From Coprinellus micaceus (taxonomy: Eukaryota > Basidiomycota > Agaricomycetes > Agaricales > Psathyrellaceae): a stretch of 64,000 nt of DNA. The notes below the pieces were generated by a model. That model did no database searches, had not been told where the DNA came from, and saw only the letters and a program-made list of their open reading frames with translations. Each line of letters begins with the position of its first letter. Positions within the stretch are counted from its first letter, which is position 1. This document shows positions 19,770-63,000 of this stretch, piece after piece. Position numbers and translations under genes: made by a program. The stretch spans positions 930,001 to 994,000 of the forward strand of contig OX596343.1 of assembly GCA_951394405.1 (NCBI GenBank). Direction: 5' to 3'.

Positions 19770-22094
19770 TGAAGCATCGCAATAATCCAGCTGCCCATCA
19801 TGGCAAGACACCACCTCCTGATCGCCGCAAGCGTGCCGGAACACTGTCGTCCCCACCTAGCAAGCCCAAGGTCAAGCGGATCCGAAAGGATACTACAGAG
19901 GAGGAGGGGGATGATGATGAACCCAGCACGAGTGTTCGCCGAAGCACCAGGGTGCCAGGCAAAGTGAAGAAGGAGCAGAAGGAGAGGCAGAAGGCTGGGA
20001 GGCCAAGAGGAAAGCTCGGGAGGAGGAAGACCATAGTGAGGAGGAGGAACCTGGGCCTTGTCGATCAACCAGGGGCAAGGCAGTCAAGGAGGAGGTTAGT
20101 CAGGAGACTCCTGAGCCTCGTCATCGATTGACTAGGGGTAAGGCTACCAAGGATGAGGAAGTAAATGAGGATGAAGGAAGTGAGGAGGATGAGGATGAGG
20201 ATGAGGATGAGGCTGCTCCTGCAACCCGCTCTCAGTAAGTGTTTCATTCATTGATTTGTTTCTTATAGCTGATGCTCTTGTTAGATCAAAGGGCACCTCG
20301 AAGACTGGAGAAACTTCCACTGCGAAGGCCCCCAAGAAGCTGGCTCTCAAGGAGCCAGCCCTGAAGCCCAAGCCCAAGCCCAAGACGTGAGTATCAATCA
20401 TTTGTTTTGGTTTACCACATGAGTATTATCCCTTATTTGTCTGTGACCATGAGTTGAGGTGCCCTTGCGAGGCTTGCCAGTGACAGTACCTCCCTTGCAG
20501 TCCAGATAGACCCCTGTTTTTATTTTATTTTAATTCTTTAGTTATACCGTAACTCACTGTGCTACTGTAGTGCTGAGCAGAAGCTTGAGGCCCTTGGGGT
20601 CTCTGTTGCACCTCCTCCTCGTCCTTTTGAGGGCATATCTGGTAGTGGTGGAACTGCATTGCACCCTAAGCGCCAAGTAGTGAAGCCCGAGTCCTTCATT
20701 CCGTCATAGTTGATGCACCATGCTGACCCTGGCTCAGACAAAAGCAGCCCATCCACTGAGCAGAGCATCACTGGCTCTGACAGTTCTCAACCTGGTTCTC
20801 CTGCTCCCTTAGAGGAGATTCCTCTTCCTTCAGATCCCAATAGTCCCAAGCCAGCCTCTCATCCAGCCAGCCTTCCACCTTCCTGTCCTGATAGTCCCAA
20901 GCCTGCCTCTCCACCGCCTAACCCTCCACCCCAGCCACGACATAGCTCTTCTCGTGCAGTTGGCAGTATACTTAGGGACAACCAGGCAAATTACGATCTT
21001 GCTGAAGCTAAGGAGGAGCAGAGGGATATGTTAATTGGTGGAAAGGCGATGGTGTTCATTCTACAGGGCACCTATAACCCTGAAATCACACCTCCTCCAA
21101 CCACAGGTACCCGTCTCATGATTGACTACCTTCCCACCATCGGTCAAGTTCTTGAGCCTCTGGGCACAAGAATCCCATACATTAAGAGTATGTCCCCCTA
21201 TTTTATTTATACCCTTTCTATTGCTGAATGTTCTATAGAAACTCAGAGTTCTGTGGGCCGGGACCAAGTTGTTCATGTCTGGATGGCACCCTACAAGTTC
21301 TGGGAGCCTCTTGGCCATTACGAGGATGCCATTAAGAATACTGGTGAAGTTTCATGGACTGTTGTCAACAACATGCCGACTGTCTATGTGCTCCTGGTAT
21401 GTTTACACTTCCACATCTTTTCTGTCCTAATTCTGACTGGATCTTTAGACTGATTGGGAAATTGGCTGCGAACCCATGGCCTCTATTGCCCCTTCTCCCT
21501 CCACATCCACTTTTCCTGCCTCTATTGCCCTTGGTCATCGAAGCACCTCCCAATTCTCGTCTCGTTCAGCAACTCCTTCCTCCACAGCCACTGCACCCTA
21601 CTCTGATTCTACTAAAATTGAACTCATGACTCTTCTTGAAGTTCCCAATTCCCAATGACCCAGACCTTGTCGAACCCACCACCATCAAGGATGTCCAAAA
21701 GGGCTACAGATGCTATCAAGCCCTGCTCAAGGCCGCCCAAGTACTCACTGAGAAGAAGACCCAGGAGAAGTTCAGGGTGGCATGTGCAATGGTGAAGCAG
21801 GAGCACATCGACAGCCTTTTTTTTGGCAAGAAGAATGTTTATAACTACAAGAACCCCTTCAAGCAGTTTCTAGGCCATGTTACTATCAACGCCCATCCCG
21901 ACTTTCATCGCATGCAGCTCTGGCTGCTGGACGCTCCTGGAGCACCAGAGCCAAAGGAGATCTGGGGTGCATTTTACAAGGGGGGGAAGGAACAGGGACT
22001 CACAGACTTCACTAGTTGGCAGGCTGATCTGGTTGGAAAGATCACTCCTCCAAAGGATACAAAGAGGTCTCATAAGAAGAAGCAGAAGGAGTAA
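19770..22094 (+). pseudogene. nuclear-type basic/acidic protein gene next to KDZ transposase, decayed
   Basis: Not recognised as a named family. Exon 1 from 19770 encodes a basic start with KPKVKRIRK and an AT-hook-like GRPRGKLGRRK. A neighbouring frame then takes over with repeated RSTRGK-type motifs and an acidic EDEDEDEDE run, implying a frameshift near 20000. Later exons give Pro/Ser-rich sequence and a folded part (QANYDLAEAKEEQRDMLIGG, VWMAPYKFWEPLGHYEDAI). The last exon (about 21640-22094) contains KTQEKFRVACAMVKQEHID and ends in a lysine-rich tail. An in-frame TAG at about 20707 breaks it. The gene is codirectional with the transposase at 23120 and may be an accessory gene of the same element. 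Confidence 0.45.
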
Positions 22095-22136
22095 GCGATC
22101 CATTCCTGGTTTGGTTTTGTCTTTTATCTAAATTGT

Positions 22137-23069
22137 GAGTACTTTACTGTGCCCCACTTCTCTAATTGGACTCCATTGGAGTCCAATTGGGGTCATTGGG
22201 TAGACTGCCCCCCAAATTTTATGCCATTGGGCCTAGCCCACCCCAACCAACCCCAATCTACCACCCAAAATTCACACGTTGGACTCCAATTGGACCCAAA
22301 AAGATGGTTTCCCCAGCCTAGACTGACAAGACACCATTGGGGTTGCGATTTGGGGTCCATTAGACAAAATCTCGTTGGACTCCACTGGAGTCCAATGGGG
22401 ACCCATGGCCCAAGCCAGAGAAAAAGCGTGGGTATGGGAAACTGTGGCTGTGCTATTTTGACATATGATATCATTCTGTCACATTAATTCCGGAAAAATC
22501 GGGAAAAATACTGAAAATATTCCCATCATTCTTGTTTGGGAAGTATGACATCATAATTGTTATGACAAATTTGACATGTAACCTTATTCCATCACATTAA
22601 TTCTGGAAAATTCGGGAAAAATACTGAAAATATTCCTATCTTACCCATTTATGACATATGATGTCATGCATATGTTGATTTGATGTCAGGGCTGATCCAA
22701 AATCTAAAGACTGGTNNNNNNNNNNNNNNNNNNNNNNNNNNNNNNNNNNNNNNNNNNNNNNNNNNNNNNNNNNNNNNNNNNNNNNNNNNNNNNNNNNNNN
22801 NNNNNNNNNNNNNNNNNNNNNNNNNNNNNNNNNNNNNNNNNNNNNNNNNNNNNNNNNNNNNNNNNNNNNNNNNNNNNNNNNNNNNNNNNNNNNNNNNNNN
22901 NNNNNNNNNNNNNNNAATTGGAGTGGGCTGGGGTGGGCTAGACTTGGTTGGGGTTCATTGGGTTTCCACTGGACTCCAATGGACCCCAGCCCCCCCAGGC
23001 TGGATATCCAATGGGGTGGCTGGACTCCAATGGAGTCCAATTAGACAAGTGGGGGAGTGTGAAGTACTG
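22137..23069 (+). mobile_element. non-autonomous TIR element, copy 3 (contains assembly gap)
   Basis: The left end is GAGTACTTTACTGTGCCCCA, and the right end read inward is CAGTACTTCACACTCCCCCA. Exact 8-bp duplications TAAATTGT flank it at 22129-22136 and 23070-23077. It lies between the accessory gene and the KDZ transposase in the same orientation as copy 1. Its middle keeps the single, undisturbed version of the 75-bp segment that is doubled in copy 1. Confidence 0.9.
22716..22915. other. assembly gap, 200 N
   Basis: A run of exactly 200 N interrupts copy 3. In copy 1 the same interval (11632-11871) holds 240 bp, so the gap is a placeholder and the true length is probably about 240 bp. 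Confidence 0.95.
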
Positions 23070-23119
23070 TAAATTGTCATACACATTTTCGTAGCTTCTT
23101 TTCATCAGTTATCTTTGGC

Positions 23120-25268
23120 TTGTCTATGCTATCCTGCTCTATGTGCTCTGTCTTTGGCTTGGCTTTTGTTCTCCTTGCTTTGATCCCATCTGTATCTGCG
23201 TATGTGCCTACCTCCCCTACCTCCCCCTTCCCAGACATTACCTTTGCTACATTCTCCTCCTTCATCACTGGCAACTTTAACTCGGATATTTCTCTGGCAA
23301 CTGTGCTTGTACTTCTCTCGAGCTTCACTGAAAATCCTGAGCTTCTCAATCTCCATGGGTGACAACAACACTCCAAAGTCCAAGGTAAGAACCACTCTTC
23401 ACTCTCAACTTGGATGATGATGTTCTCCCATCTCTTGCTTGGCAAGCGGCTTAGAGATGAATGGAGGGAACTATTTCATCCTGCTGATCGTGTCTATCTG
23501 GCTGACAATGAGCCATACAATACCACTGCTGTCAATGCTCTGTCAACAAAGCTCAACGGTCTGGTCTCTGTACTGGGCCTCAATGCTTTTAAGCATACTG
23601 GAAAGCTTCGTCATCGGCGAAGGGAGATTTCATACAAGGATACTGAACCTCTGCGTCTGATCCTGTCTCAGTCATATGAGTGCGATGCAGAGGGTTGTTC
23701 CCGATACTCCCTCAGTCAGAATACAAAGTATTCCCAGGTTCCCAAGGTCAACCTGATCAGAGTCTCTGATTCAGTCAAGGCATGGGTACTGCATGGACAC
23801 TGTGATTGTTGCAAAACATCATACTATGCAGACCACACTTGCTTCCGTGAGTCTGACACAGACGAGTGGCAGCAGTCAATCTTGAGCTCAGCTCGATTTG
23901 TCAAGCTTGGCCAATCCACTTGGGCTGACCGGGCCTTCACCACCTCTGTTCTGAATGCCACTTATAGCTTCCATGCCTCTACCTCTGCATTTGCGGAGTT
24001 TTGGAGTACAAGCTTTGGAGATCAGGCCAACACTACTGTCACACGTCGCCATGTCTAGCAGGCCTTCATCTCCGAATCTATTGCTATGGTTGCCCAAGAT
24101 CTTCCAGAGAACAACTTGGTGGTTTCTGATACTGCAGACATTGACGAGGTCACTACTGCGGCTTTCACCCAACTTGGCAATGGAGGTATCATCCAAGCTG
24201 CTCAAGGGCATACCTGCGATGAGTGTTGTCAGAAGAGGAGATTTGGACCCAATGAGCAGCACTTGAATGCAGATCTCTATGATCCGGTTCGAATGTGTGT
24301 TGTGGATGGGATTGTGATGTCTTCAACAGTATGTCACTCATCTTTTTGAGAAAGTGTCTCCTATAACTTATTTTTCAAACCCAGCATTGTGCCTATGATG
24401 GCTGTCAAGCCACACTGGCGAACGCTCGTGGTGAAGCTTTCTGCGAGTATCACCGCCAGCTCTATGGCAACCGTTGTCGTGTCTGTGACTGCCATCTTCC
24501 CTCTATGATTGGTACACAGGCATGTGTCCATCGTCAGAGAGAATGGGAGCACCACCAGGATACGCATAGTAGAGCCAGCCTTGCTGGAGTACATCGCATG
24601 ATCTCTAGGCCTCAGGAACGTGTTCCTTGGCAGAATCCCTGCCAGGTAGCTGAGGTTCAAGCCCATGACCAACCTGCACCTGAAGATGAGGATGCTGGCG
24701 TCCTGCACAAGCACATCTTTTCTCCTGCCAGGTACTACTGCACAGAGACTGCATGCTACCCATGTGGTGCTGTCATTGCATGGACTCTGTTTGACCGGAG
24801 CGAATCCCCCACCAACATCCTTCGTTTCTTGGCCACCATCTTCTCCACCCCCCAGTCTCATCCTGATTACATTTGTGTTGACAAGGGGTGTCAGATTCTC
24901 AGGACTGCTGTGGTCAATGGGAGCTTCAAGACAACTTGGAAGGATACCAGGTTTATTGTGGACACCTATCACTACTCTAACCACAAGCGCACTGACAACC
25001 TGTGTCAAACCTGGTGCAACCCCTCTCCCCTTGATGGTAGCCAGCCCAACCTTGTTGTTCAAGACATTGACCACAATGGAGAGCCATACTACAGGCGTGC
25101 TTTCAACACTCAGGCATCAGAACAACTTAATACCTGGATTGCAGGCTTTGCTGGGATTCTCAAGCACATGACAATTCACAACTTCAACTGGTTCTTGCAT
25201 GCAATGTTGTATTTGCATATAAGCGGGTTATTGCTGCACAGGAGAAGAAGAAGCAGGCTGCATAGATG
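23120..25268 (+). pseudogene. KDZ-type transposase with CxC5- and CxC6-like cysteine clusters, decayed
   Basis: The N-terminal exon (TFATFSSFITGNFNSDISLA) fits the leader of CxC5 proteins. After an intron at about 23381 comes a CxC5-like region with YECDAEGCSRYSL and HGHCDCCKTSYYADHTCF. After a further intron (about 24331-24385) a CxC6-like region follows: HCAYDGCQATLANARGEAFC, then RQLYGNRCRVCDC. The DDE-type catalytic half includes YYCTETACYPCGAVIAWTLF, YICVDKGCQILR, VDTYHYSNHKRTDNLC and AFNTQASEQLNTWIAGF. Defects are a TAG stop at about 24056 in an otherwise conserved stretch and a frameshift near 25210, after which the expected KRVIAAQEKKKQA tail lies in another frame. The C-H-x-C patterns and order are characteristic of KDZ-associated proteins of Agaricomycetes. 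Confidence 0.75.
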
Positions 25269-25584
25269 ATAGGAGAGGTGTTGAGGAGTGATGGGAGTTG
25301 TTGCTGGACTGATTTTTTTTGTTGCTTTATTATGCTATCTTGTCTTGTCATGGACTTGTTTTATCTTCAGACAGCCTTTTTTTTTGTACTATACTTGTCT
25401 CTTCCTTCTCATATGGCCTCACTGTTCCTCTGATGACTCACCTTTACTTATGCTTGTCCCCTTGACTTGTTTTAATACAGCTATACTCCTGTTGTGGTCG
25501 TCACATCTGTACTACATTTGTACTGTATTGGATTGGTTGTGTTTTTGGTTCAAAGTTGCTCATACCTCTACATCAAATTAGATA
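25269..25584. other. T-rich 3' flank of the KDZ gene, no gene
   Basis: The stretch is T-rich and gives hydrophobic translations that resemble no family. I read it as untranslated or decayed transposon DNA. Confidence 0.5.
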
Positions 25585-26053
25585 AATTCCGGTTGGGGTC
25601 CAATAGAGTCTTGTTGGAGTCCAGTTGGAGTCAAGTTAGAGTTGAGCTGAAAGTCAATCCATACTGAACATATTTACACTAGTCGGTAGGACTGAGGATG
25701 TTTGCTAGTTGGAGTCTAGTTGGAGTTTGGTTGGAGTCCAGTTGGACTCACAGAGTCTAGTTAGACATGAATGTGGACTTTTAGAGCAAGTCCTGATTGG
25801 GGCCCAATTGGAGTCTAGTTGGAGTCCAATCACTACCAACAATTTTTGTCTGGAGTCTGGACAGAGTTGGTTGGACTTGGTTGGACTTGGGTTGGAGTCC
25901 AATTGGAGTGGGCTGGGGTGGGCTAGACTTGGTTGGGGTTCATTGGGTTTCCAATGGACTCCACTGGACTCCAGCCCTCCCAGGCTGGATCCCAATGGGG
26001 TGACTGGACCCCAATAGAGTCCAATTAGACAAGTGGGGGAGTGTGAAGTACTG
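25585..26053 (+). mobile_element. half copy of the TIR family (right end only), copy 5
   Basis: The last 240 bp match the right part of copies 1 and 3, ending GTGGGGGAGTGTGAAGTACTG at 26053. Upstream the copy contains extra TTGGAGTCYAGTTGGAGT repeats in one orientation, more than other copies. No left terminus of this family lies upstream in the correct position and no target duplication was found. It begins about 300 bp after the KDZ transposase, so it could be the right end of the KDZ element itself. Confidence 0.6.
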
Positions 26054-26241
26054 AGCCACACACCCAATATTGGCTGGAAGTCATTGGTCTTCCACTGGAT
26101 GTCCAGTGGATTTAAGAGGGTGGACATCCACTGAACAATCCAGTGAAATTTTGGCTGGACAATTTGAGCAAATTTGGAAGAGAAAGGCCAGTGAATGTCC
26201 ACTGGATTCCTACAGGCAAAATGGAGGAGTGTGAAGTACTT
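26054..26241 (+). repeat. second right-type terminus with different subterminal palindromes
   Basis: This block ends GGAGGAGTGTGAAGTACTT at 26241, nearly the same terminus as copy 5 just before it. Its internal palindromes are different, of the form CCACTGGATGTCCAGTGG, with TTTTGGCTGGACAATT words. It appears to be the end of a related element that shares terminal bases but has its own binding repeats. Confidence 0.5.
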
Positions 26242-26566
26242 GCACTAAGGTGTTAGGGGTAGACAAGGAGGTGGAGGATGACAAGATTGGAAGAGGTGGC
26301 TATGTTGAAGAAGGCACTGCTGCTGGCATATTGGAGGGTTGGTGAAGAAAGTAAGGCTGGTTGTATCTATCACAAACTAATCTGCCTGTTTCACCAGCAG
26401 TCTATTGGTTGGGGGTGGTCAGTACAAACAATAAAACCCATAAAAAGACTGTTTCTCACCTGAGTCCGAACAATGTCGTTTGAAAACATGGACCCATCAG
26501 ATCACTCAGGACACAACCTGACCCTGGGTATAACACCTGGGCCCTGTGTGAGGTGTTGACCGTCTG
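26242..26566. other. spacer without recognisable gene
   Basis: Between two transposon ends, 325 bp show only short unconserved frames. I see no feature here. Confidence 0.4.
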
Positions 26567-27561
26567 CAGTACTTCACACTCCCCCACTTGTCTAATTGGA
26601 CTCCATTGGAGTCCAGCCACCCCATTGGATATCCAGCCTGGGGGGGCTGGGGTCCATTGGAGTCCAGTGGAAACCCAATGAACCCCAACCAAGTCTAGCC
26701 CACCCCAGCCCACTCCAATTGGACTCCAACCCAAGTCCAACCCAAGTCCAACCAACTCTGTCCAGACTCCAGGGTGAAATGTTTGGTAGTGATTGGATGC
26801 CAACTAGACTCCAGTTGGAGTCCAATGAGACACTAGCCACATCTGTCTTTTATGCAACTGTAGGCTGTGTGAAAAATCATTATCTTTCCCACAGTTGTCA
26901 CCAGTTATCATCACACTCATATCAGACCCCCTGAATGCAAATATAGTAACTGAATCAAATTAGCAGTCTTTAGATTTTGGATCAGCCCTGACATCAAATC
27001 AACATATGCATGACATCATATCTCATAAACAGGTAAGATAGGAATTTTTTCAGTATTTTTCCAGAATTTTCCAGAATTAATGTGGCGGAATAAGGTTACA
27101 TGTCAAATTTGTCATAATAATTATGATGTCATATTTCCCAAACAAGAATGGTGGGAATATTTTCGGTAATTTTCCCGATTTTTCCGGAATTAATGTGACA
27201 GAATGATATCATATGTCAAAATAGCACAGCCACAGTTTTCCATACCCACGCTTTTGCCCCACTTGGGTCACAGGTCCCCACTGGAACTCCATTGGAGTCC
27301 AATGAGATTTTGTCTAATGGACCCCAAATTGCAACCCCAATGGTGTCTTGTGAGTCTAGGCTGTGGAAACTGTTATTTTTGGTCCAATTGGAGTCCGATG
27401 TGTGAATTTTGGGTGGTAGATTGGGGTTGGTTGGGGTGGGCTAGGCCCAATGGCATAGAATTTGGGGGGCAGTCTACCCAACAACCCCAATTGGACTCCA
27501 ATGGACCCCATTGGATACCCAATGGAGTCCAATTAGAGAAGTGGGGCACAGTAAAGTACTC
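26567..27561 (-). mobile_element. non-autonomous TIR element, copy 4 (995 bp)
   Basis: The copy is in the same orientation as copy 2 and nearly identical to it. It begins CAGTACTTCACACTCCCCCA and ends, read inward, GAGTACTTTACTGTGCCCCA. The flanks are ACCGTCTG (26559-26566) and ACCTTCTG (27562-27569), an 8-bp target duplication with one later substitution. It has no coding capacity. Confidence 0.9.
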
Positions 27562-28659
27562 ACCTTCTGCATGTCTGCATGGACACACATCCCCAGACTG
27601 GTAGATAGTCAAGTCAGGGAGGTGGAATAAAACAAGAGATCACAGAACTTACCATGTCTGCCAAGTCAACACAACAACACAGAGAGCATGGCCACATGGC
27701 CATCTCTGCCAGGTTCAAGTCTGGCATATGCCCTCAAGATCTTAAGATGGAGGGACAAGAAAAGGAAAGGAAGGGAATACAAATAACAACCACAAAGTAA
27801 GCCTGGTTTTATAGATAAAATCTGGCTCTTCTTGAAGGTGAAAGCACTAATTACCAGTTCCAGAAGAGAAGGTTGATTGCTGTCCATCAAACCTCTCCCC
27901 CTGAGGAAGCGTACTGGACATAGACTTTTAGTGCCTTAATTACAGCTCTATTCACCCAGCTTAACTTTCAGGTAAACAATAAAACAACAAGTAGGTACGC
28001 ACAGAAGACTCTTTCCTTCCCCAAAATCATTAGCAAATGGTCAAAAATATACCAAATGTGCAATGATTGGTGCTCCTTCTTGTTCTTGGAGGCACTGACA
28101 GGCGTCAACCCATCCCAGGCCAAGAGGGGGACCTGGTCCTCCTCCCAGATTGTGAAGGCCAAGGCCCATTAGGATCTCTTAAGGTTCATGGTTAAGATTG
28201 GCATAGAGGGAATGTAGAGGGAGAACACACAGAGATCAAACAATGAGGTTGGGATCAGTTCTGCCTAGCCTGATGCATTTTCAAACTCCGGCCCCCAGGG
28301 TGCCAGGAATGACCCCCTAGAAAAAGCCTCTAGGTCTCAAATAAGAGACAAATTTATATGGAACATAGTATATAGAGTCATTAAAGGGATTTGGAACCAG
28401 GTTTGTGTTTCCTCAACCCCTTTTGCAGCTACATCTAAGGCAAAGGGCTTGCTTACTAGGCTGATCACTACCCTTACAAGTGTCCCTTCCCCACAACTCC
28501 ATGGTCTCAAATAGTACTTAAATTATGTTGAAACATGTACTATCACAGCTTACTTACAGTTATGAGCAAAAATTGTGTTTCCCTCTGTACATTTAATTCT
28601 ACTATTGTGAGTGCAACCTAAGGACTGAATGTGACCCAGCCCTGTTCCAAAAGGGAAGG
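27562..28659. other. about 1.1 kb with no recognisable gene
   Basis: The translated frames are short and unlike known families. The segment precedes a polypurine-like tract and a possible LTR start at 28660, so it may be the decayed interior of an LTR element. Confidence 0.35.
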
Positions 28660-29464
28660 TGTTATCACGGTAGGGTTATGTTACGACCTCGATGAGGGAG
28701 TTTGCATTGTCCGTCACTGGTTGGCTTCTTAGTTGTACTATCCCCCTATTCCTAATAGCTTCTGGGATGTTGTGTGGTTAGTCACATGTCTATTGGGCAA
28801 TAGTATGTTGCACTGGTATCAGACTTGCACATTCTTCTATGACATGTCAGGGGTCCACAGATACTCTCGGATGCTTACTAGTTGGTCGATCTTCTAGTCA
28901 AGTCCGGCTTACAGATGCTTCCTAGTTGGGCGATCTTCTAGGCAAGTCTGGTGTCGTCACATGGCAGGTTCACTACTAGGCAATAGTGGAGTGTGAAAGG
29001 TTCTCAGTGGCATTCACTGTCTCGGCTGTTATTTGTGATGCGAAGGGAGTCTTGTGGAGTTGCAGAAGTCTTGCAGGAGCTTATTGAATGGGAGAGCAGA
29101 GTGATGGAGTGGGCGAAAGGGGACTAGGATTAAAGTATAACAAGCTAAGCTACATCGGATAAACTATGGGGTCTTTATACTACTTTGGTGTGAGTCATGG
29201 GGTAGCTGTGTATGATGATATAATGAGGTCATAGTGGAGCGAGTGGAGTAAATAGTGGGGTGAGTGGAGTATTAGTGGAACGCATACTGCGCATGAGTCA
29301 GGGTAGCTGCGGGGTAGCTGCAGAGTTGTAGTAAACGCATACTGCACATGAGTCAGGGGTAGCTGTGGAGTTGTAATTACTATAAGTCATAAAAAGAGAA
29401 AAGGAGAAAAAGAATATGGTGGTCATGCATAGGTAGGAGGGGAGGTGTGAAGTGAAGCGTAACA
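28660..29464 (+). repeat. possible Ty3-type LTR, 805 bp
   Basis: The block begins TGTTATCACGG, ends GAAGCGTAACA, and so has the TGTTA..TAACA ends common in Ty3/gypsy LTRs. AAAAGGGAAGG directly upstream is a good polypurine tract. The interior contains two tandem duplications: GATGCTTMCTAGTTGG near 28870 and 28914, and CGCATACTGCRCATGAGTCAG near 29281 and 29335. No flanking duplication was seen and no partner LTR is in the window. Confidence 0.4.
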
Positions 29465-31575
29465 GGTTATCTCAAGTGCCCACTGGCACCCATTTCCAGC
29501 TCTTTAAAGCCCTTGCACCTTGTTTCAGGCCTTCCCCCAACATCTCCCTTCATTACATGTCATTCTATGAAAGAAGGACATGCCATATTTGCAGAGCATA
29601 CCCGCACCACATACCTGGCCCTTTTTTGGAGTGTTGCAGAAACATTGTGGATGCATGTTGGAAATTGGGAGATTCTGAGATCGCAAAGACAGCGCTGTCT
29701 GATCTTTCTAAACAATGCAAGAAAGGTAGTCCTTATAACAATTCAATCCAGCTCCCAGACCATTTTATGGTTATAAATTAATAATTGATTAGAGCTTGGA
29801 TCGCTTGGATCCTGAGGATGTGGAGACAATCACAGTCAGTGTCCAGGATATGGTTGAGTGCTTAGATGAGGCAGCGACCACGATCAGAGACCCTGCTGAT
29901 CACCCTGCACCATCCCATGGTAATACCATCCACACTGGAGCAAGAGGTCACCCTGCCATTGATATCAGACCTGAGGATCTTGCCTCCCTCCAACAAGGCA
30001 GGACTACCCATGTCAAGCTGGCTAGCATTTACAATTGCAGCACCAAGACTATCCAAAGAAGGCTATTGGATTATGGCCTTTCAGAATCTGGCCTGCCAGT
30101 TAGAACAAGGGTTGAAGTGGAGGATGGGACACTCATGGACATTTTCTGTGTGAGGAGCAGCAGTAATCTATCCAAGCTAACAGACGAGGAGCTGGATGAA
30201 GTCCTCCTACATATCTATTAGCAATTTCCAAGATTTGGGTGAAGAATGATTGATGGGTATCTTATGGCTATGGGAAAGAGAGTTCCAAGACAAAGAATAG
30301 CGGAACCTTTTGGCAGAGCTATAGGTCCACCTGAAGGTGTTTTTGGACACAATCAACCCATCAAGCATAGAGTGCATGATGCAGAGGGTCCTGGATCCCT
30401 ATGGCACCATGACAGGCAGCATGATAATTGTTTCCATTCAACATCTCAATCTCAGCAATTAGCTAACACAAGATACAGGGCTCCAACGATACAACATCAT
30501 CTTTCATGGCTTTATTGACAGTTTCTCAAGGCTGGTGGTTGGGATGAGAGCCAGCACAAACAATCAGGCAGCCACAGTGTTGCTATTATTTGAAGAGATC
30601 ACCAGGGTCTTTGGTTATCCCAGTCAGGTGAGGGGAGATTACAGTATGGAGAATATCTTAGTTGCTGCTGCAATGAATGAAGTTCGTGGGAGGGGTCGAG
30701 GATCATACATCTGGGGAAAGTGAGTTTTTAAAACATACTGACAGCCTTTCCAGCTAAGTGACATGGTTACTCTCACTTAGGTCTGTCCATAATATCCAAA
30801 TCAAGTGTTTATGGGTCGATGTCACATTTGGGTTTGGAGGAAAGTGGAAAACCTTCTTCCAGGAGTTGGAGTCCAGGGAAGGTTTGGACCCAGACAATCC
30901 ATCTCATCTCTGGTTACTTCATTACCTCTTCCTGGATGATATCAACTGAGACATTGAGGACTGGGTGGCCTTTTGGAATAATCATAGTGTAGGCTGACAA
31001 GGAAGCCGCAACATGACACCCAACAACATGTATCACCAAGGAATACTAGAGAGGGGTGTGAGAGCATTTTATCTGGAGAGGCACTTGGATTGGCGGTTGG
31101 ACAAGGAAGACATTGGGGGCTTGGATGATCCCATCAAAGGGGGCCTGGATGGCTATGGGATCAATTGGAATAACCTGGACAATCGGTGCATTCAAGCTCA
31201 TTATGCAGAGCACAATGGTGATAGAGAGAGGGAGGAGGGAGGTCAAAATCCTTTTGGAATGCAAATCCCACACCACCTATCACATGTTGGGGTCAAAGAC
31301 CTGGACTGCCCATTTGACAAAGACATGAAGCAGTTATTTACAGTGAAAATTCAAAGCTTACCAGAATATGGCAGTGTTGACATGTACTCCTGCTGGATCC
31401 TACAAATGCAGGCATTGGGGATTGTGGGAGAGATGTTTGAGGATGGGGCAGATGAGGAGGGTGGTTTGTATCATGATGGTGAAGATTGGGAGGCTATAGA
31501 TGGCTTCAATACCAGCCAAGGGCCAATGGAATACATTGGTGATGATCTACTGGAGTATATAGATCCAGAATAAAC
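29465..31575 (+). pseudogene. DDE integrase-core transposase pseudogene
   Basis: In order: an N-terminal helical part; a helix-turn-helix (VKLASIYNCSTKTIQRRLLD) at about 30016-30080; a QFPRFG..RMIDGYLMAMGKRVPRQRI linker broken by two stop codons (about 30219 and 30238); the integrase core with LWHHDRQHD; then, after a frameshift, NIIFHGFIDSFSRLVVGMRA, QVRGDYSMENILVAA and RGSYIWGK. After an intron come SVHNIQIKCLWVDVTFGFGG and LWLLHYLFLDDIN. A last open frame (31013-31575) has the family's C-terminal tail. Relatives have IERLW where this copy has IKCLW, so the catalytic Glu is lost. It is dead by several independent lesions. The family is a widespread fungal rve-like transposase; I do not assign a superfamily name. 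Confidence 0.7.
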
Positions 31576-32203
31576 TCATTAGCCTTCCCTCTAGCCTTCC
31601 AGAACTGTGTATCTGCCTCTCTAGTCCTCCAGGGGGATGTTTGTTCACACAATAGGTGTAGCCTCTGTGCTAACCTGGCCAAGCACAAGACACAGCACAT
31701 TGAGGTGTCTTCAAGTTCACTGTGTATGACCGGTGGATTTGAGCAGGTAAAATCCACCATCCACCTTGCCGCTCAGCAAGCCATTGTAGTGTTGAACACA
31801 ATTATCATGAGAAGGGCAACTGAGATCCAGAATGTCTAAAACAAGAGGGCAAGAGCCCCACAAAGCCAAATGCTAAAATTCAGCGGCACCAAGAACACAA
31901 ACATTTGCCTCTTGAGTGGATGTGCTTGGGGCGACTCATCAATGTGAAGAATGGCGAATGCTGCAATGATCAGTGGGGGGTATGGGGATTTGGGGGGACA
32001 CTGTCGCACATGTACTCAGCACGATAGATGTGCGGTGTTAGCTCATGTAGAAAGCACCCCAAAGTGAACAAGACCCAATATAGTATTGAATGTCGTTCGG
32101 TATGGTAGTGGTAAGAGCTAGAGGGACACGGTAGGCGTGGCCCTCAGTAATGTGATGTGATGACTAATGATCAAAATGGGAAATAGGGGTGATCCCTGTT
32201 ACA
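31576..32203 (-). repeat. Ty3/gypsy 3' LTR region (minus strand, LTR starts at 32203)
   Basis: On the minus strand the sequence runs through a polypurine tract, GGAGGGGGAGAG, and then begins TGTAACAGGGATCACCCC. This is how a Ty3 3' LTR starts. The far end of the LTR is not clear, so the left coordinate is only a limit. A TATATATATATA run lies just inside the element at about 32254. Confidence 0.5.
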
Positions 32204-40822: not shown

Positions 40823-42420
40823 TCATGCGGGTCGCGCTGGACCGCAGCGTCTCGGAGGGTGTAGCGATGGGGAAGCGCCGCAGGGCTGTATGTGGGCCGA
40901 AGGGGGAGCGGTGGAGGGTTTGTCCCAGAGGCGCCCGTGTTGTGAACAAGACGGCGATTGTAGAGGGCCGTGGGGACGATCAGCCATCTGAGGCGAGTGC
41001 AGGTACGTGGGTGGGGAGATGTCGGAACTTGCCCCTGTTGCGAGGGCGGCAGTCACGTTCACGTTCCCAGTTTCGCTGGCCGTTGAGGGGTGGGGGGCCA
41101 CGACGATCGCAATCCCAATCGAGCAGTCTCATTGCCTGGTAGAGGACGACCATGCTCAGTGGTGTAGAGGCGAGGCGAACGTTGAGGAGGGCCGTTCGTT
41201 CGCTGAGGGGTAATTGAACCCATATTGTCCGGGTGATCAAGTCCATGAGATATGGGGGAGAGGAAGCTTGACTGGGAATGAGGAGAGCCCCTGCGATAGA
41301 TGGATGGGTGGTGACCATTCTTCGTATCGTCGGGCCCAGGAGGAGGAGGAAGACCATGGCTCCGAGTCAGCGGAAGGTTCTGGTGATCAGAAGGTCCGCA
41401 ACCGGGTCCTTCCCTAGTCAAGCTGGTGGAAGTGAGATGTCGTTCGCTGGACCTCTCGAGTTGGCGTGCATGGCATTGCAGTGGCCTCCGTCCACTATGT
41501 GAGAGCTGTTCAGATGCAGGTGGGACGACCGCGCTGGCGTATGCTGTAGGGTGTCCATTCTGGGGACCAGGTGGAGGAGGAGGGAGCTGACCACCAGCAA
41601 CATGTGCCTGCTTCAAAAGCTGAAGATGCTGGGTGATGCTGGGGTTGTTGGGACAGAGCTCAGAGGCTTGGGCGTAGGTGTCGATAGATTTGGTTATTGC
41701 AGCGCTCGTACAGGGATCCGAGATCGAACCAGACTTCGGAGATGTAAGGGTTGATACGAATGGCTTGGGAGTAAGCATCGAGGGCGTCGCGGTGTTGGTT
41801 GATCTGGAAGTACAAGATGCCGATGGAGCGAGAGAGCGTAGGGTTTCCCCCGTCGCGACAGATAGATTGCTGGTACACTTCATACGCTTTGTTGTACTTG
41901 GTCACGGCCACGCACGCACGGCCCAGCAGGTACCAGGTCTGCGCGTCAGAAGGGTGTGATGAAAATGAGGTGAGACGGCGCGACAGCTGCAGGAACGAAG
42001 AGCGACTCGCCAACCCCCAAAGATTTGGTCGGGTATTGGATGGCGAGATCTTGGTTGTGGAATGAGGAGCGGCCTTGGTGATACAGCCAACCCAGTTGTT
42101 GAGGGTCTTTGGCATGCGTGAGAGGGGCTGTCGGCGACTACGCGCTCGCACGCATATTTGGCGTGTTTGCTACTGGGCAAGGGTAAGTAGAGAGAAAGTG
42201 ACATAGTTGCCCCAACTCACGCCTTTTTGCTGCTCGGAAACATGGCCAATTTGGAACCAGATGTCGGTATGGGCGAAATGACGTGGAGAATTGTGGAGTA
42301 TTTGAGGGAGTCTTCGTCCTTGCCCGGCCGCTTGTAGATGATGCCGAGTCGGAAGGGTATTTCGTTGTTCCCATAGAAATTGCGACTTGTATGTAGAGTT
42401 AGACCTGCTCAAGTTAGGGA
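40823..42420 (-). pseudogene. SSN6: Ssn6/Cyc8 TPR corepressor pseudogene, copy A
   Basis: Intact Ssn6 is a TPR adaptor that joins Tup1 in the nuclear corepressor. From 42420 the minus strand gives RLGIIYKRPGKDEDSLKYST and, by frameshifts, pieces of the next repeats. It then reads SDAQTWYLLGRACVAVTKYN, LYFQINQHRDALDAYSQAIR, and INPYISEVWFDLGSLYERCN, the Ssn6 hallmark. A shifted frame continues with ASELCPNNPSITQHLQLLKQ and the Pro-rich tail (GGQLPPPPPGPQNGHPTAYA). The N-terminal TPRs are missing and several frameshifts are needed, so it is a pseudogene. An intron with a GTGAGTTGGGG donor near 42220 matches the intron in copy B, so the copies arose by DNA duplication, not retroposition. Confidence 0.85.
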
Positions 42421-51946: not shown

Positions 51947-53686
51947 CTATTCGGAAGCTGGGGCCACCGCACCTTTCAGGAGCTCGTCGATCGTGGACCA
52001 CAATCCCAATCCCATCTCCCACCGCAAGGCCTTATCCTCCTGAATCTTACGGTACTTGGCCTTATTTCTCTTCTTGAGCCTTTTCTCTGTCGTAAAGCCG
52101 TTGTCGACGTAGCGGAACATTGCGCCGGCTGTATATTGTGTGAAGGAAGCGCGAATCTCGCCGTCTTCGACTGGAATATTTCCGTGGGTGATAGCAGCGG
52201 ATGGGAGAAGTACGTGAGTTCCACTAGGGAATTGGATGATGAGCTTTGGCTCCTTGAGGACGATATGGCCTCCCTTGAGGTAATTGTATTTCCCGACAGC
52301 ATGGACGGCGCACTTGCCAAAGACCAAGTCCCTACAGTCGCGGTGGAAGTACGTCGCAACTCGCTTTCCACAGTTGCAAGCCGCCGTGGAGAAGATGGAT
52401 TTCTCCCAGTTCGGGTTGAAGCCTGCCAGTCGTTGCCTGACGGGTATGGTGTGTGCGTGGTAATAGTCGTAGAGTTTGGGTATGTAAAACTTCAGGGACG
52501 CTAGCCCACCGAGCTTGAGTATTGAGTGGGGTAAGATCTCCAATTATAAGGGCACTCACCACTTTGGTGTAGGGCGAGTCGCTCTAATGCAGGGCTTTGA
52601 CGCAGTCTTCTGTCGATATCCTTATGCCGGCCGTTTCGCAAGGTGTATGGGTCTTGAGGACCGTGGCCTGCTGAGGTTCCGATGTTTATCGCAGCGAAGC
52701 CCTCGCCTCGGGTGTGCTTGAATTCCCCCTCTTCAAAGCTGCCATCTGTACCCAGTTCGACCAGGAGGTCGGCAACGGCGTCGCATGCCGCGTCGTAGGT
52801 TGGGTTGTCGGGCTTGGGAACGCCGACGAAGAAGATCTTTTCGGTCTCCTCTTCCACCAGAATCAGGGGGTTACTGAGGCTCACTTATAAGACGGGGAAT
52901 GGGGGGGGGGTCTGTGTGGGCGGGCTTACCGGCCATCCCATTCAATAACTTCGTAGCCTTCTGACAATAGTTCCTCCATATCCAGCGTCCGCTCCTCCTT
53001 CTCGCTCTGGTACGTAGCTTCATAACCACTTGCGTTGGCTGGAAGATCTTCTAGCACAATCGTGGCCGATGTTGTCGTTGCAGCGCCCAGGAACTCGGCG
53101 ACCTTGGACGCCTGGGGCTTCCCCTTGTTCTCGTTGAAATCTTTGAGCTGCTTGACCTTGCGTCGTGCGATTTTGTGCTTCTTATTGTGCGCCTTTCTTC
53201 CGCTCCCGCGCTTGCTGGTACCTGCACTCAAGTCTGGCTGTAGTGAGGTGGCGAATCGTATTGCCCCCTCCGGGCCTACTGAGCGAGCCTGTGGCGCTGG
53301 GCGCTTAACAGAGCCCCCAGAATCATTGGTGGGGCTGAGGTTGTGAAACTTTCGCTTGCTGCGTTGTAGGGTCAAGCATTCGTCGGTATCATCTGTAAGT
53401 TCCCCGCCGCCCACGTCGTCATCTGTGTCGTCGTCGGTACCGGCGCAGACATCTGCTTCAAAGTCTCTGTCATCTTCGCTTGCAACCGCGCGTTGTAGGG
53501 CTGCCGTTAACGAGAACGTTGTCATGCGGCACTTGAAGACCTGCACATGGGGGGAGGACAGATCTGTGGGGTAGCAAGAAACCTAACAGGTAGGAACGGC
53601 ATCAGGGAGTGGTATCTCAATATCCGCAGGCGAGACTTTGGCGAGACTATCCAGGTTGAACTTACCTCAGGGGTGCTGTTGTCCAT
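51947..53686 (-). CDS. TET/JBP-like 2-oxoglutarate/Fe(II) dioxygenase
   Basis: Four exons, start ATG at 53686 (MDNSTPE, then an intron). The long second exon is acidic and then basic: DDDTDDDVGGGELTDDTDE, and HNKKHKIARRKVKQLKDF, ending EGYEVIEWDGR (about 52929). The next exon has LVEEETEKIFFVGVPKPDNP and GEGFAAINIGTSAGHG. The last exon holds the catalytic double-stranded beta helix: FYIPKLYDYYHA, FNPNWEKSIFSTAACNCG, FHRDCRDLVFGKCAVHAVGK, GGHIVLKEPKLIIQFPSGTH, ITHGNIPV, and IRASFTQYTAGAMFRYVDNG. HRD supplies the HxD iron ligands, the His of THGN the third, and the Arg of RASF is a candidate 2-oxoglutarate contact. The block order matches the expanded Agaricomycete TET/JBP-like family, proposed to oxidise 5-methylcytosine or thymine in nuclear DNA. 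Substrate is inferred. All key residues are present and I see no lesion. An upstream ATG at about 53748 is possible. Confidence 0.7.
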
Positions 53687-54303: not shown

Positions 54304-54825
54304 ATGAGTGAAGCCAAGGTGCGTTTGCCCCTCTATTATTCTGACCGGTGTAGAGGGAGGAATTAACTGGACCACGGAACGTTCGATCAGTCATACCCTG
54401 TGTGCTCCATGTAGGAGGCCAAATGGCCACAGGGTGATCCCCCCGAAAGGCCAACCGTCGAGGACTATTTTTACGGTATGTGACCTACCCCATTTCTCTC
54501 ATGGAAAGGCTCAACTGCGTCGTAGTCTTCATTGGCGCTCCCGGTGCATACGGTGCGCACCCACACAAGCCGGGGAGAAATACTCATGGTGAACCGATTA
54601 CGATTAGGCAATACCTACGACAGTTCTGTGACGGGTCTACTGGACTCCAGCGCTCAGGTCTTACTTGCGAGGGGATGCCTCTGCTACCTCTTTCCGTGCA
54701 GGGCGAAGGCAGACACACTTTGTATGTCTGTTGGATAGATGAAGGTATGTATACACCCAAATCTTGCATTGATGGTCTAACTTCCCGAATAGACTCGATT
54801 TTGACAAGACGAAACCATTAATCTT
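54304..54825 (+). CDS. possible short gene upstream of Ssn6 copy B
   Basis: MSEAK at 54304 ends at a GTGCGT donor. A second exon (about 54413-54475) gives EAKWPQGDPPERPTVEDYF, which is protein-like, and ends at GTATGTG. Joining to a third exon gives an early stop in the simplest splice, while another frame gives LNCVVVFIGAPGAYGAH. I cannot choose a final structure. It could be a small gene or a decayed one; no family recognised. Confidence 0.3.
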
Positions 54826-56825
54826 CCGATTCGGCGTCGTCTACCAGCAGCAGGGCGAGTACGAAGGCTCCCTCAAATCTTACGCAAGCCCCCAAGTGCT
54901 CTCCTTCACCCCGACATCCACCTCGAAATTGGCCACGTTGACGACCAGCAGAAAGATGTAAGTTGCGGCGACTATGTCACTTTCTCTTTACTCACCATCT
55001 CCTAGTACCGGCGCGCCAGGGATGGGTACGAGCAAGCAGTCACTGACAACCCCTCCCACGCCAAGGCCCTTGAACAGCTGGGTTGGCCGCATCACCAAGA
55101 CGGCTCCTCATTCCAAAACCAAGATCTCGCCATCCAATATTTGAAAAAGTCTTTGGCGGCTGGTAAGTTGCTCTTCGTTCCGGCAACTATCACCCCGCCT
55201 CACCTAGTTTTCATCAGATCCCCCTGATGCGCAGAGTTGCTACCTCCTGCGCCTTGCGTATATGGCCGGGTCCAAGTACAATACAGCGTACGAAGCCAGC
55301 AAGACTCCTATCACGACAGGCAAAGCTCTACCCCATCAGCGTCTTACACTTCTAGATCAACCGATACCGCGACACCCTCGACGTCTTATACTTCCAGATC
55401 AACCTATCCCGCGACGCCCTCAATGCTTATCCCCCGCCATTTGCATCAACCCTTATATCTCTGAAGTCTGGTTCAACCTTGGATCCCTGGACGAGGGCTG
55501 CAATAACCAGATCAAAGATACCATCGACGCCCGAGCCTCGGAGCTCGACCCCAGCCACTCCACCATCGCTCAGCGCCTTCAGCTTCTGAAGCAGGCACTA
55601 GCCGCTGGTGGTCAGCTCCTTCCTGCACCTTGGCCCCGGGATGTACACCCTACGACGTACGCCAACCCGGTCGTTTCACCGCCAGGTCTGAATGGCCCTC
55701 TCATGGTGCGCAGAGGTCACCGCAATGCCATGCACGCTGACTCGAGAGGTCCAGCGAACGACATCTCGCTCCCACCCGCCCAGCTCAGTAGTAATCGCGC
55801 ATCGTCGCCACCATTCCGTGGCGGTCCCCCACCACCTGTCAACATCGACGAGTCCCGCCATCCATCGTCATCGCACTCCCCTCTGGCCCCTATGGAGGTT
55901 GACCGCCCACATGTCCACCCTCGTGACTACCCTCCGCCTCGAGATGGGCCTAGTCGTGGACCTTCTGGGCACCAGAAAATCCAGCTGAACCATGGCCTCC
56001 CTCCTCCTCCTCCTGGGCCCGACGACATGAGGAACAGTCACCCACCCATCCAGGAGAATATCTATCGCGGACGGCCTCCTCGTTCCCATTCAAATTCCCC
56101 TGCTCCCCATAACTCACGACCTCGATCACCCGTTCAGCATGGGTTCAATTACCCCCACCTCGTCAACAAGTTGGTCCTGGTCAACCGACGAACGGCCCTC
56201 CTCAGCGGTCGCCTCATCTGTACACCACTGAGCATGGTCGTCCCCCACCGGACAATGAGGCCGCTTGGGATCGCGATCGCCGTGGCTTACCCCCCCTCAA
56301 CGACCAGCGAGACTGGGACCGGGAACGCGACCGCCGTCCTCGCACCAGCGGCGAGTTCCAGCACCCCCTCCTGGTCCTGGCATATACCAGCACTCACCAC
56401 AGATGACCCACCTTCCCCACAACCCCCCACAACCATCGCCCCGTTCGCAACATGGACGTTTCTGGGACACGAAACCCGCCACCATTCCTCCTTCAGCTCA
56501 CATGCAGCACCCCCGCGGCGCTTCCCCACTACCACCTCCTGGTCCGAGCCGCTACGATCCAGCACGTTTCGGAAACCGTGAGCGCGACGCATATGAGGCC
56601 TCGTTAGCGGCGGAGCGTGGGTACGGTTCGCCAGAAAACCCTCGCGGAGGCCCCAGTCGCCCTCAATTTGCTGCGCCAACACCTCGTCGGTCTGAGTCGC
56701 CGCATCCCAGCCAGAGTATGGAGGCGAAGTCGCGCCGACGACGACGAATATCAACAACGATAAATAGGTCGACGTCGACATCAGGCTGGATCTCGTCACC
56801 CTCTGTGGCTGACAGTCTCATCTAG
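54826..56825 (+). pseudogene. SSN6: Ssn6/Cyc8 TPR corepressor pseudogene, copy B
   Basis: The sequence enters at IFRFGVVYQQQGEYEGSLKS, passes an intron whose donor GTAAGTTGCGG and interior match that of copy A, then gives YEQAVTDNPSHAKALEQLGW and NQDLAIQYLKKSLAAG. After another intron it reads SCYLLRLAYMAGSKYNTAYE, a locally scrambled TPR, and then INPYISEVWFNLGSLDEGCN. The helix ELDPSHSTIAQRLQLLKQAL and a long Pro-rich tail follow, in one open frame from 55262 to 56581. Defects include a duplicated 42-bp segment, loss of the first TPRs and a frameshift near 56580. It is the mirror-image partner of copy A. Confidence 0.85.
55340..55423 (+). repeat. 42-bp tandem duplication inside a TPR of Ssn6 copy B
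   Basis: Two 42-bp units (55340-55381 and 55382-55423) begin CGTCTTAYACTTCYAGATCA and differ at only a few positions. In one frame the unit encodes VLYFQIN..RDAL, the A helix of the TPR. The length is a multiple of three, but the surrounding frame is already disturbed. Confidence 0.75.
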
Positions 56826-60084: not shown

Positions 60085-63000
60085 ATGTCGCACCTACCAT
60101 CCCCTTCCCACGTCTGCTCTTCCTGTGGTGGGGGGTTCTTCGACTCTGAGAGGCTGGCCTACCACCAGACCTTTTGTTGTACAACAGAAGAGAGACAGCC
60201 ATACGATTCTCTCGCGGGGTTGCAAGCGGGTCAGCTGGTGGACGCCCACAACAAACGACGGAAGATATCCCTCACGTCGTTCCTTCCACTAACTCTCCGC
60301 TCCAAGGACTCCGATGAGCTTTCGAGAAAGGTACCAGAGCTGACCATCTGTGTATTGCGCGTACCAACTTCTGACGACACATCTAAGATTCCTGGCACAT
60401 CCACCTCAACACAGCGGAGCATTCTTACCAAACCCAGCATTCCAAGTGTCAAGCCGACGACGAGCCAAGCCGGCGCAGACCAGACCCCGTCAAACGCCCC
60501 CAGGCGTGATGCAGAAGCCTCGGACAACCGCCCGATTGCCTCCAGGACCCGCAGGGGATTGCATAACCTCAAGGCAGTTGGAGACCAACTCCCAGAGCCG
60601 TACTCCCTCAACGGCTCAGTTTTCTTTGCCCCTGCTCGTACGTTCAAACAGTAGGTCTACACGTAAAACCAAATGCTTACACAACCTCGATTTCTTAGAT
60701 AGTAGCTATTCACGACACATGGCTTTCCGCAACCTACCCAAGCCAACGCTCCTCCAGGGGAAGCCCAACAAATTTCATCTTCGCCGACAGTACTACAACA
60801 CATCGCTTCCTGATCATGATCCGGAAGAAAGCCTCGGGCTTCAAGATCTTTACAACTGCAAGTATCATACACGCGAGCCACCCGACCACGCAGTCCTCGG
60901 ACCATTCCCCAATCTTTCGAGCTTCGAACTGGGTGAATGGTACATCAATGCCGGATCCCAACTCTCTGTCAAGGGCCTTCAAAAACTTGTCGATATCGCC
61001 CAGGCCCCAGGATTCTCCGACGACATCAAGCAAGCAGACTGGGCCAAGATTCTCGGTGACCTTGGGTCTAACAAGGAGGATCTTCCGCAGCTCGACAAAG
61101 ATAGCGACCAGTGGATGGATGATGACGGATGGGAGAGGACTCCTGTCGCAATCCCTGTTCCCGTGAAGGGATCTACCGAGGATCATGTGGTGGGGACACT
61201 GTACCACAGAAATATCGTCTCAATCGTTCAGGAGAAGATCGCCAACAGTCTCGACGCCCACCTTTTCCATCATGAACCATTCGAGGTTCTGTGGCAGCCG
61301 GACCCATCTCTTCCTCCTACTCGCGTCCACTCAGAGCTTTACAATTCCGACGCATTCCTCAAGGCTCACCGCGACCTGCAAGATACTCCTCGTCCTTCGG
61401 GTTGCCACTGCCCTCGGGTCGTCGTTGGCTTGATGTTTTGGTCCGACGCCACCCACATGACGTCGTTCTCCGACGAGAAGCTTTGGCCCTGCTATATGGG
61501 CTTTGCAAATGAGTCGAAGCATCGGAGGTGCAAGCCAACCTTGGGCCTAGTTCACCAGATCGCTTATTTCGACAGCGTTCGTGGGTTTTCACTCCTCCGA
61601 GTGTCGCATGACTCTAACAGTAATCATACCTTCAGCTCTCCACCAGCTTCAAGGACTACGTGACCAAAAGAGGTGACGGCAGGTATCCATCGGATCCGTT
61701 CACTGCCCATTGCAAGAATGAGATGATGCATGCTCAATGGGACATCATTCTGGATGAGGAGCTGCTGGACGCTATCAAGAATGGGATCGTGATCATGTGC
61801 CACGATAATATCGAGCGCCGATTCTACATAAGGATTTTTACTTATTCCGCTGACTACCCCGAGAAGTAAGTACTTCTCCTGCACCCTTCCCAACCCTCAA
61901 ACTTAAAGCATTTTAGAACTCTGATTGCCACCATCAGGCAGCGAGGGGACTGCCCATGCCCTCGATGTTCCGTAAAGATGGCTGAGATTGATCAAATGGG
62001 AACACCTGAGGACATGCGCCGCCGAGAACAGCAAGCTCGGAAGGATGATGCCGCCAGGCGCGCCTTAGTCCAGGACGCAAGGAAGCTTCTTATTCCCGAT
62101 GACCAAAAGAAAGGAGTTGCGTTTGGGAATGGCGACGTCGAGGCCTTGCTCAAGCCGCAATCTCTACATGCAGTGGAGGTAAGTTTTGTAAATGTAACAC
62201 CTACCACTTTGGTGGTTGACGTCGGCTTTTCCATACAGAATTCCTTCAGTAAAGTCTCGGATATTGACAGCAATTTCGACATCTTCTCCACCCTTGTCGT
62301 CGACCTCCTGCACGAGTTTGAGATTGGCGTGTGGAAGGGTCTCTTCACCCATATTATGAGAGTCGTCGATGCATGTGCGCCCGCTAGTTCCCTTCTGCAT
62401 GAGCTAGACACACGGTACGTCCATTGATGCAGCCTGATCTTTATCTAACAATATCTGTGGGTGCAGAATCCGACTCACCCCGAATTTTGGGAAATCCATT
62501 CGCCGCTTCTCCTCGAACATATCAAAGATGACGAGGAAGACTGCTCGAGACTATGAGGATGTGCTACAGGTATGTGTCGTCACCTGTGATGTCGGGTAGG
62601 CAAAATTGAGCTCCGTTGCAGTGCGCACTCCCTGTGTTCGACAGTTTAATTCCCGACCCCCTCGTTCAGCGTTCTGTGGTGTCTATAGTCGACGTCTGTG
62701 TCCGTTGGCACGCCCTTGCAAAGCTGCGCCTGCACACGGACGAGACCCTTCAGATCCTGGAAGACACGACTGTTGAACTTGGCAACGAATTTCGGTACTT
62801 TGCTTATGAAGTCTGTCACAAGATACCGACAAAAGAGCTGGCTGCCGAACAGGTGAAGCGGATACGGCGAGAAGAGAAGAAGGTAGAGTCAGATGCTAAG
62901 AAGGCAGAGTCAGATGCCAAGAAGGCAGAGGCAGCAGCGAAGAAGGCAGAGGCGGCGGTGAAGAAGGCAGAGGCGACAGCGAAGAAGGCAGAAGCAAAGG

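Follow-up and report, generated by a model that had tools for sequence, protein, structure and literature searches.

We have analysed a 64,000-nucleotide stretch of the Coprinellus micaceus genome (contig OX596343.1, positions 930,001 to 994,000; the window) and, within it, the gene at 51947..53686 on the minus strand, for which the original prediction had proposed an apparently intact TET/JBP-like dioxygenase. The gene extends from an ATG at 53686 to a stop codon at 51947 and forms a single frame of 499 amino acids across four exons, separated by introns of 125, 56 and 59 nt, all with GT..AG borders. Exon 1 (53666..53686), which supplies the start codon and precedes a GTAAGT donor at 53665, is the least certain. 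Exon 2 (52930..53540) encodes the N-terminal region, exon 3 (52560..52873) the N-terminal part of the oxygenase fold, as judged from the predicted model of a relative, P0001, and exon 4 (51947..52500) the double-stranded beta-helix core, assigned from its residues and by fold comparison. A single-sequence search with the window protein returned five homologues (best E 2.7e-126), and matches to paralogues in the same genome are interrupted near residues 211 and 316, the two later intron sites of the model. Together, these homologues and interruptions argue that the gene is not a product of chance.

Searching with a 15-sequence alignment extended the set to 138 homologues, the best 120 of which were listed, and a search with the domain of a relative gave 61, each search having scored only ~8000 candidate proteins. 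Among the matches listed are proteins of Coprinellus, Coprinopsis, Candolleomyces, Mycena, Tricholomella, Hypsizygus, Pluteus, Pholiota, Pleurotus, Lentinula, Artomyces and Phlebiopsis; judged by homology, this family, termed here the HxD family from its iron-binding motif, has relatives in many Agaricomycetes. One member, P0087 of Coprinopsis sp. MPI-PUGE-AT-0042, is an 827-amino-acid protein that also contains an alpha-kinase domain, either a fusion or a gene-model error.

Exon 2 carries the acidic-basic extension that had been proposed to precede the catalytic domain, with an acidic run at residues 37-61 (53379..53453 (-), net charge -12) followed by a basic run at residues 116-140 (53142..53216 (-), net charge +12). 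The basic run is common in the family, as the 51 relatives possessing an anchor motif have a median best net charge of +8 per 25 amino acids, compared with +2 for stretches placed at random in proteins of the family.

Catalytic residues of the window protein

The HRD motif, the downstream THGN and the arginine that had been read from the exon chain were all confirmed and lie within exon 4. Positions were placed by sequence alignment and spacing, not by superposition, in an alignment of 192 rows that comprises family proteins, some contributing more than one row, and 11 in-genome exons; counts exclude rows that are gapped at the column concerned. Roles of the residues of CcTet, the enzyme used for reference, follow PMC11040006. 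The HxD iron motif (52337..52345 (-)) corresponds to CcTet H326/D328, the second iron-binding histidine (THGN, 52184..52186 (-)) to H376 and the 2-oxoglutarate (2OG)-binding arginine (GEIR, 52151..52153 (-)) to R385. These columns are conserved in 175/177, 173/177, 181/181 and 172/181 rows for H326, D328, H376 and R385, respectively, with Glu in none of the 177 rows at the HxD aspartate, and, of the 172 rows that span the four ligand columns, 159 retain every ligand. The order and spacing of the HxD..H triad and the 2OG arginine are TET-like in the window protein, the two histidines being 53 residues apart compared with 50 in CcTet and the second histidine and arginine 11 compared with 9. A Tyr (52133..52135 (-)) occupies the position of the base-stacking aromatic residue, hTet2 Y1902 or CcTet F391, which is Tyr or Phe in 181 of 182 rows.

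Residues at the base-contacting positions distinguish the family from both reference types. At the CcTet G331 position, where hTet2 N1387, NgTet1 D234 and CMD1 D350 contact N4 of 5-methylcytosine (5mC) according to PMC11040006, the family has Asn in 174/177 rows and the window copy Asp (52328..52330 (-)), as does its frameshifted sister copy, C1:5500. The Asn/Asp contact of characterised 5mC-oxidising TET enzymes is therefore present, as Asp, in the window protein. The CcTet 337 column is Cys in 174/177 rows, including the window copy. The CcTet 393 column, which provides the contact to O2 of 5mC, is occupied by Ala (136), Pro (25), Ser (11), Gly (6), Val (3) and Thr (1) in 182 rows, with Ala in the window protein. 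CcTet possesses Gly331, Asp337 and Arg393, whereas the window family has Asp/Asn, Cys and mostly Ala/Pro/Ser; the hallmark of the AG type of fungal enzyme, to which CcTet belongs, Gly/Ser at 331 combined with Asp at 337, is replaced by Asp and Cys in the window protein, and the O2-contacting His of TET2 (H1904) and NgTet1 (H297) has no counterpart in the family. By these residues, the family is neither of the CcTet type nor a plain copy of TET2.

Fold and the two TET families of one genome

The predicted model of the full-length relative P0001 adopts a TET-type fold that is closer to TETs than to AlkB/FTO. Candidates from other classes, FTO, AlkB and further 2OG oxygenases, all ranked under the TETs in this comparison and were rejected. 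When exon 4 of the window gene was compared alone, NgTET1 and CcTet ranked first, by a small margin: the first 12 rows of the Foldseek output were CcTet or NgTET1, followed by an intermixture of gamma-carboxylase (2.7e-4), PiuC, AlkB and cupins. Identity to NgTET1, human TET2 and CMD1 in the fold alignments is 11-17%. The structure prediction that had been suggested as a check accordingly returned a TET-type fold, and on the predicted fold the window gene encodes a TET/JBP-like 2OG-Fe(II) dioxygenase. The profile search suggested alongside it gave a divided answer, in that the spliced protein itself has no Pfam match while Tet_JBP (PF12851) matches 22 of the 52 sequences of the wider family alignment, A5, at E<=1 (best 1.6e-5). 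One relative, P0140, bears a precomputed PF12851 label.

The expansion of TET/JBP genes in fungi was reportedly first described by Iyer et al. 2014, and the original prediction placed the window gene in the CcTet-like Agaricomycete family. This assignment did not hold. Searching the genome with Tet_JBP gave 31 matches, 28 of them above the cut-off, at ~30 places, none of which is at the window gene. A profile built from seven of these in-genome matches finds CcTet with E 3.4e-36, and the seven aligned rows retain G331 in 6/7 and D337 in 6/7. The window's family gave 52 matches at about 19 places in the same genome. Judged by profiles and residues, the window family is separate from the CcTet-like (AG-type, Kyakuja-borne) family with which it shares a genome.

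The two families also differ in their proximity to KDZ transposases, for which 64 places were counted, places having been collapsed by hand from the genome matches. A KDZ place lies within 10 kb of 25 of the 30 Tet_JBP places, compared with 5 of the 19 places of the window family (3 of 19 within 5 kb); for the other 14, among them the window copy, KDZ matches are absent over the same 10 kb. For a distance of 5 kb, 1.3% is expected per place (P 0.0017), under a null of uniform placement that ignores the clustering of transposons. The genome also contains four PF00145 DNA-methylase matches above the cut-off, counted exon by exon and not as genes.

Mobile copies and the surroundings of the window gene

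That genes of this kind travel with KDZ-type transposons, as the original prediction had noted, is borne out by elements elsewhere in the genome. Comparison of two 20-kb regions revealed a common unit whose ends could be defined, at C1:3058503-3070019 and at C11:1007806-1021389, with ~96-98% identity in the aligned parts. The ends read CACCTG...CAGGTG and the inverted repeats are ~270 bp long and 79% identical. Exact 8-bp duplications, AATCTAAA and TGGGGGCT, flank the C1 and C11 elements, respectively. The site into which the C1 element inserted is preserved without interruption in repeat copies at about 17.8 and 26.9 kb of the window, which we take to be of the long terminal repeat type. A genome-wide search with the 25-bp ends (<=3 mismatches) found seven places, corresponding to three element pairs and one lone end on C1 with the same flank as the right end of the C1 element, while the reversed control found none genome-wide. 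The third element, C5:4269776-4281352, has TCGCGCTC on each side. All three elements are thus 11.5-13.6 kb long, with terminal inverted repeats (TIRs) and exact 8-bp target-site duplications (TSDs) (3/3), and each contains a family copy; in the C5 element the catalytic exon of this copy is complete and retains H, D, H and R. A KDZ transposase was matched in two of the three elements, C5 and C1, the latter having a single stop in one of the matched parts; none was detected in the C11 element.

The element-borne copies follow the Zisupton pattern. In PMC12730594, Zisupton elements are described with TIRs and an 8-bp duplication and TET+ Kyakuja elements with 7-bp TSDs and no TIRs; the elements of the window family share the KDZ transposase, TIRs and 8-bp duplications with the former and, in their long TIRs and 8-bp TSDs, are unlike the latter. 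The same source describes AG-, PU- and PE-type TET/JBP enzymes. The PE type resembles the window family as divergent TET-fold proteins carried by DNA transposons including Zisupton, also in Agaricales, but is characterised by HxE, whereas the window family has HxD. The family was set apart from the AG and PE types by residues. The sections of PMC12730594 consulted, in which the AG-type Zisupton enzymes of Auriculariales appear without residue detail, contain no comparable HxD family beyond the AG and PU types. The idea that the gene protects its element from CpG loss was rejected, as the observed/expected CpG ratio (CpG o/e) is 0.79 in the C1 element and 0.56 in its flanks, but 0.69 in the C11 element and 0.94 in its right flank.

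The window copy itself was not found in such an element, in agreement with the original prediction. No exact 8-bp duplication pair with 11/14 TIR identity was detected within 11 kb on either side of the gene, and a search for Zisupton- and Kyakuja-type ends gave 0 pairs with 8-bp or 7-bp TSDs, as did each of 10 shuffles; the same search recovered both control elements, C1 and C11. No copy of the known TIR lies near the gene. Four other family regions also gave 0 end pairs, suggesting that missing ends are common in the family. Similarity of the window copy to its relatives at the DNA level is restricted to coding sequence.

The KDZ transposase that had been placed 27 kb away was retained in part. 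A relic of a KDZ-type transposase, recognised by its CxC5 and CxC6 cysteine clusters, is located at 23363-25266 (+); the KDZ core, PF18758, has no match in the window, and no link between the relic and the gene emerged. The relic lies in a CpG-depleted stretch, 20001-32000, in which CpG o/e is 0.11-0.31 per 2 kb, suggesting methylation-driven loss of CpG; beyond 32 kb the ratio is 0.60 or higher. A Plavaka transposase is encoded at 60344-61660 (+), 6.7 kb from the gene, raising the possibility that the window copy belongs to a Plavaka element; elsewhere in the genome, the sequence at 57.3-64 kb is repeated only in short or diverged form. The neighbourhood also contains an inverted pair of diverged gene copies (~75-80% DNA identity), 54800-56500 (+) and 40900-42400 (-), with others on C2 and C4, which presumably are Cyc8/Ssn6-like; one copy gave a weak TPR match only (E 0.053). 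Elsewhere, C7:130840-137800 (L011/L055) and C11:2438398-2445400 (L012/L056) share at least 6.96 kb at 99.5% identity across contigs, and this shared stretch includes the family copies that are most similar to the window gene in the catalytic exon, at 80% identity.

Function and fate of the window copy

Combined, the gene structure, key residues, elements elsewhere in the genome and coding conservation are the observed bases for a reading that we regard as likely as a whole, namely that the window gene is an intact dioxygenase of the TET/JBP clade and an immobile copy of a separate HxD family of Zisupton cargo. The protein, whose fold is predicted, would be an Fe(II)/2OG enzyme, probably nuclear and binding DNA through its basic N-terminal helix. 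It would flip a methylated base, most likely 5mC, out of the DNA and oxidise the methyl group. Carried as cargo by the mobile members' Zisupton-type (KDZ) transposons, such an enzyme would reverse the methylation silencing of its element.

A number of observations weigh against this reading. Pfam finds 0 families in the window protein or in its three frames taken separately, and no TET was recovered from the PDB by sequence, whether the query was the window protein, profile A2 or profile A5, although the fold search did find TETs. In hhalign the comparison of the wider alignment A5 with the CcTet-like set drops to a probability of 20.8 (E 0.0011), and 2OG-FeII_Oxy_3 is matched by more A5 members than Tet_JBP (31/52, best 0.0037). 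Among the three element-borne copies, that of C5 alone combines a complete catalytic exon with all ligands: His replaces the 2OG-binding arginine in the C1 copy, and the C11 copy is truncated. Finally, the O2-contacting His/Arg (hTet2 H1904, NgTet1 H297, CcTet R393) is absent, with Ala/Pro/Ser in 172/182 rows, and 5mC may therefore not be the substrate. The weak 2OG-FeII_Oxy_3 matches would also fit a 2OG oxygenase outside the TETs, AlkB/FTO-like or prolyl-hydroxylase-like, as would the comparison of exon 4 alone, in which AlkB trails NgTET1 by only ~2 Z units and is level with human TET2 and CMD1; with the ranking of the full-length relative, we consider such an enzyme improbable. Membership in the known AG-type, Kyakuja-borne group is more improbable still: clade by fold, genome and a link to KDZ transposases are shared, but the 31 Tet_JBP matches bypass the window gene, and its Asp and Cys stand where the in-genome CcTet-like rows each keep G331 and D337 in 6/7.

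The fate of the immobile copy is a separate matter. It may be a stranded relic, an old cargo gene without ends that is intact by chance or youth and heading to decay, an explanation to which we give a little under an even chance. The absence of a TIR/TSD pair around the gene and the restriction of DNA similarity to coding sequence fit this explanation; set against it, the gene is intact as had been predicted, with all frames and splice sites open and all catalytic residues in place. CpG content does not discriminate, CpG o/e being 0.92 in the window gene, 0.71-1.03 in 17 other copies, broken ones included, and 1.02 in the frameshifted sister, and thus having no power to separate intact from broken family copies. 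The alternative, a domesticated gene under purifying selection for the host, appears rather unlikely. It is favoured by the intact frame, by the lack of a detectable element and by conservation despite saturated silent sites: between the window and C7 copies, the proportions of nonsynonymous (pN) and synonymous (pS) differences in exon 4 are 0.12-0.13 and 0.85, quoted in place of a ratio of substitution rates (dN/dS) since pS exceeds 0.75 in most pairs. These values show, as far as saturated comparisons allow, long purifying selection on the window and C7 lineages together, selection which could stem from an earlier life inside an element. The nearest paralogue of the window copy by tree is the frameshifted C1:5500 (support 100/97), whose pN to C7 over 173 codons is only slightly higher than that of the window copy (0.149 vs 0.127), indicating that conservation can outlast loss of function and therefore does not decide between domestication and stranding. 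Furthermore, P0101 of Coprinellus micaceus, which of the foreign proteins is the most similar in the catalytic exon (77% identity over 133 amino acids), groups with the C7/C11 copies instead.

More speculatively, the family could be a further mushroom TET lineage, neither AG nor PE, with an Asn/Asp base contact and no O2-contacting His/Arg, acting on a different base or yielding a different product and spread by Zisupton, in which the window copy, sharing its Asn-to-Asp change with its sister, was recruited by the host for an epigenetic role; we hold this extended scenario to be doubtful. In the samples scanned, over half of the family escapes the standard Pfam model, and the matches shown in detail fall under its cut-off, so that Pfam-based counts of fungal TETs are likely too low. 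With their defined ends, the three elements of this genome provide concrete material for testing. If activity holds, mushroom genomes would contain two or more TET lineages that were mobilised separately, differ in their active sites and are found on different transposon groups. One could then test whether the recruitment of base oxidases to counter methylation silencing has recurred among transposons, and whether some of these enzymes turn into host genes.
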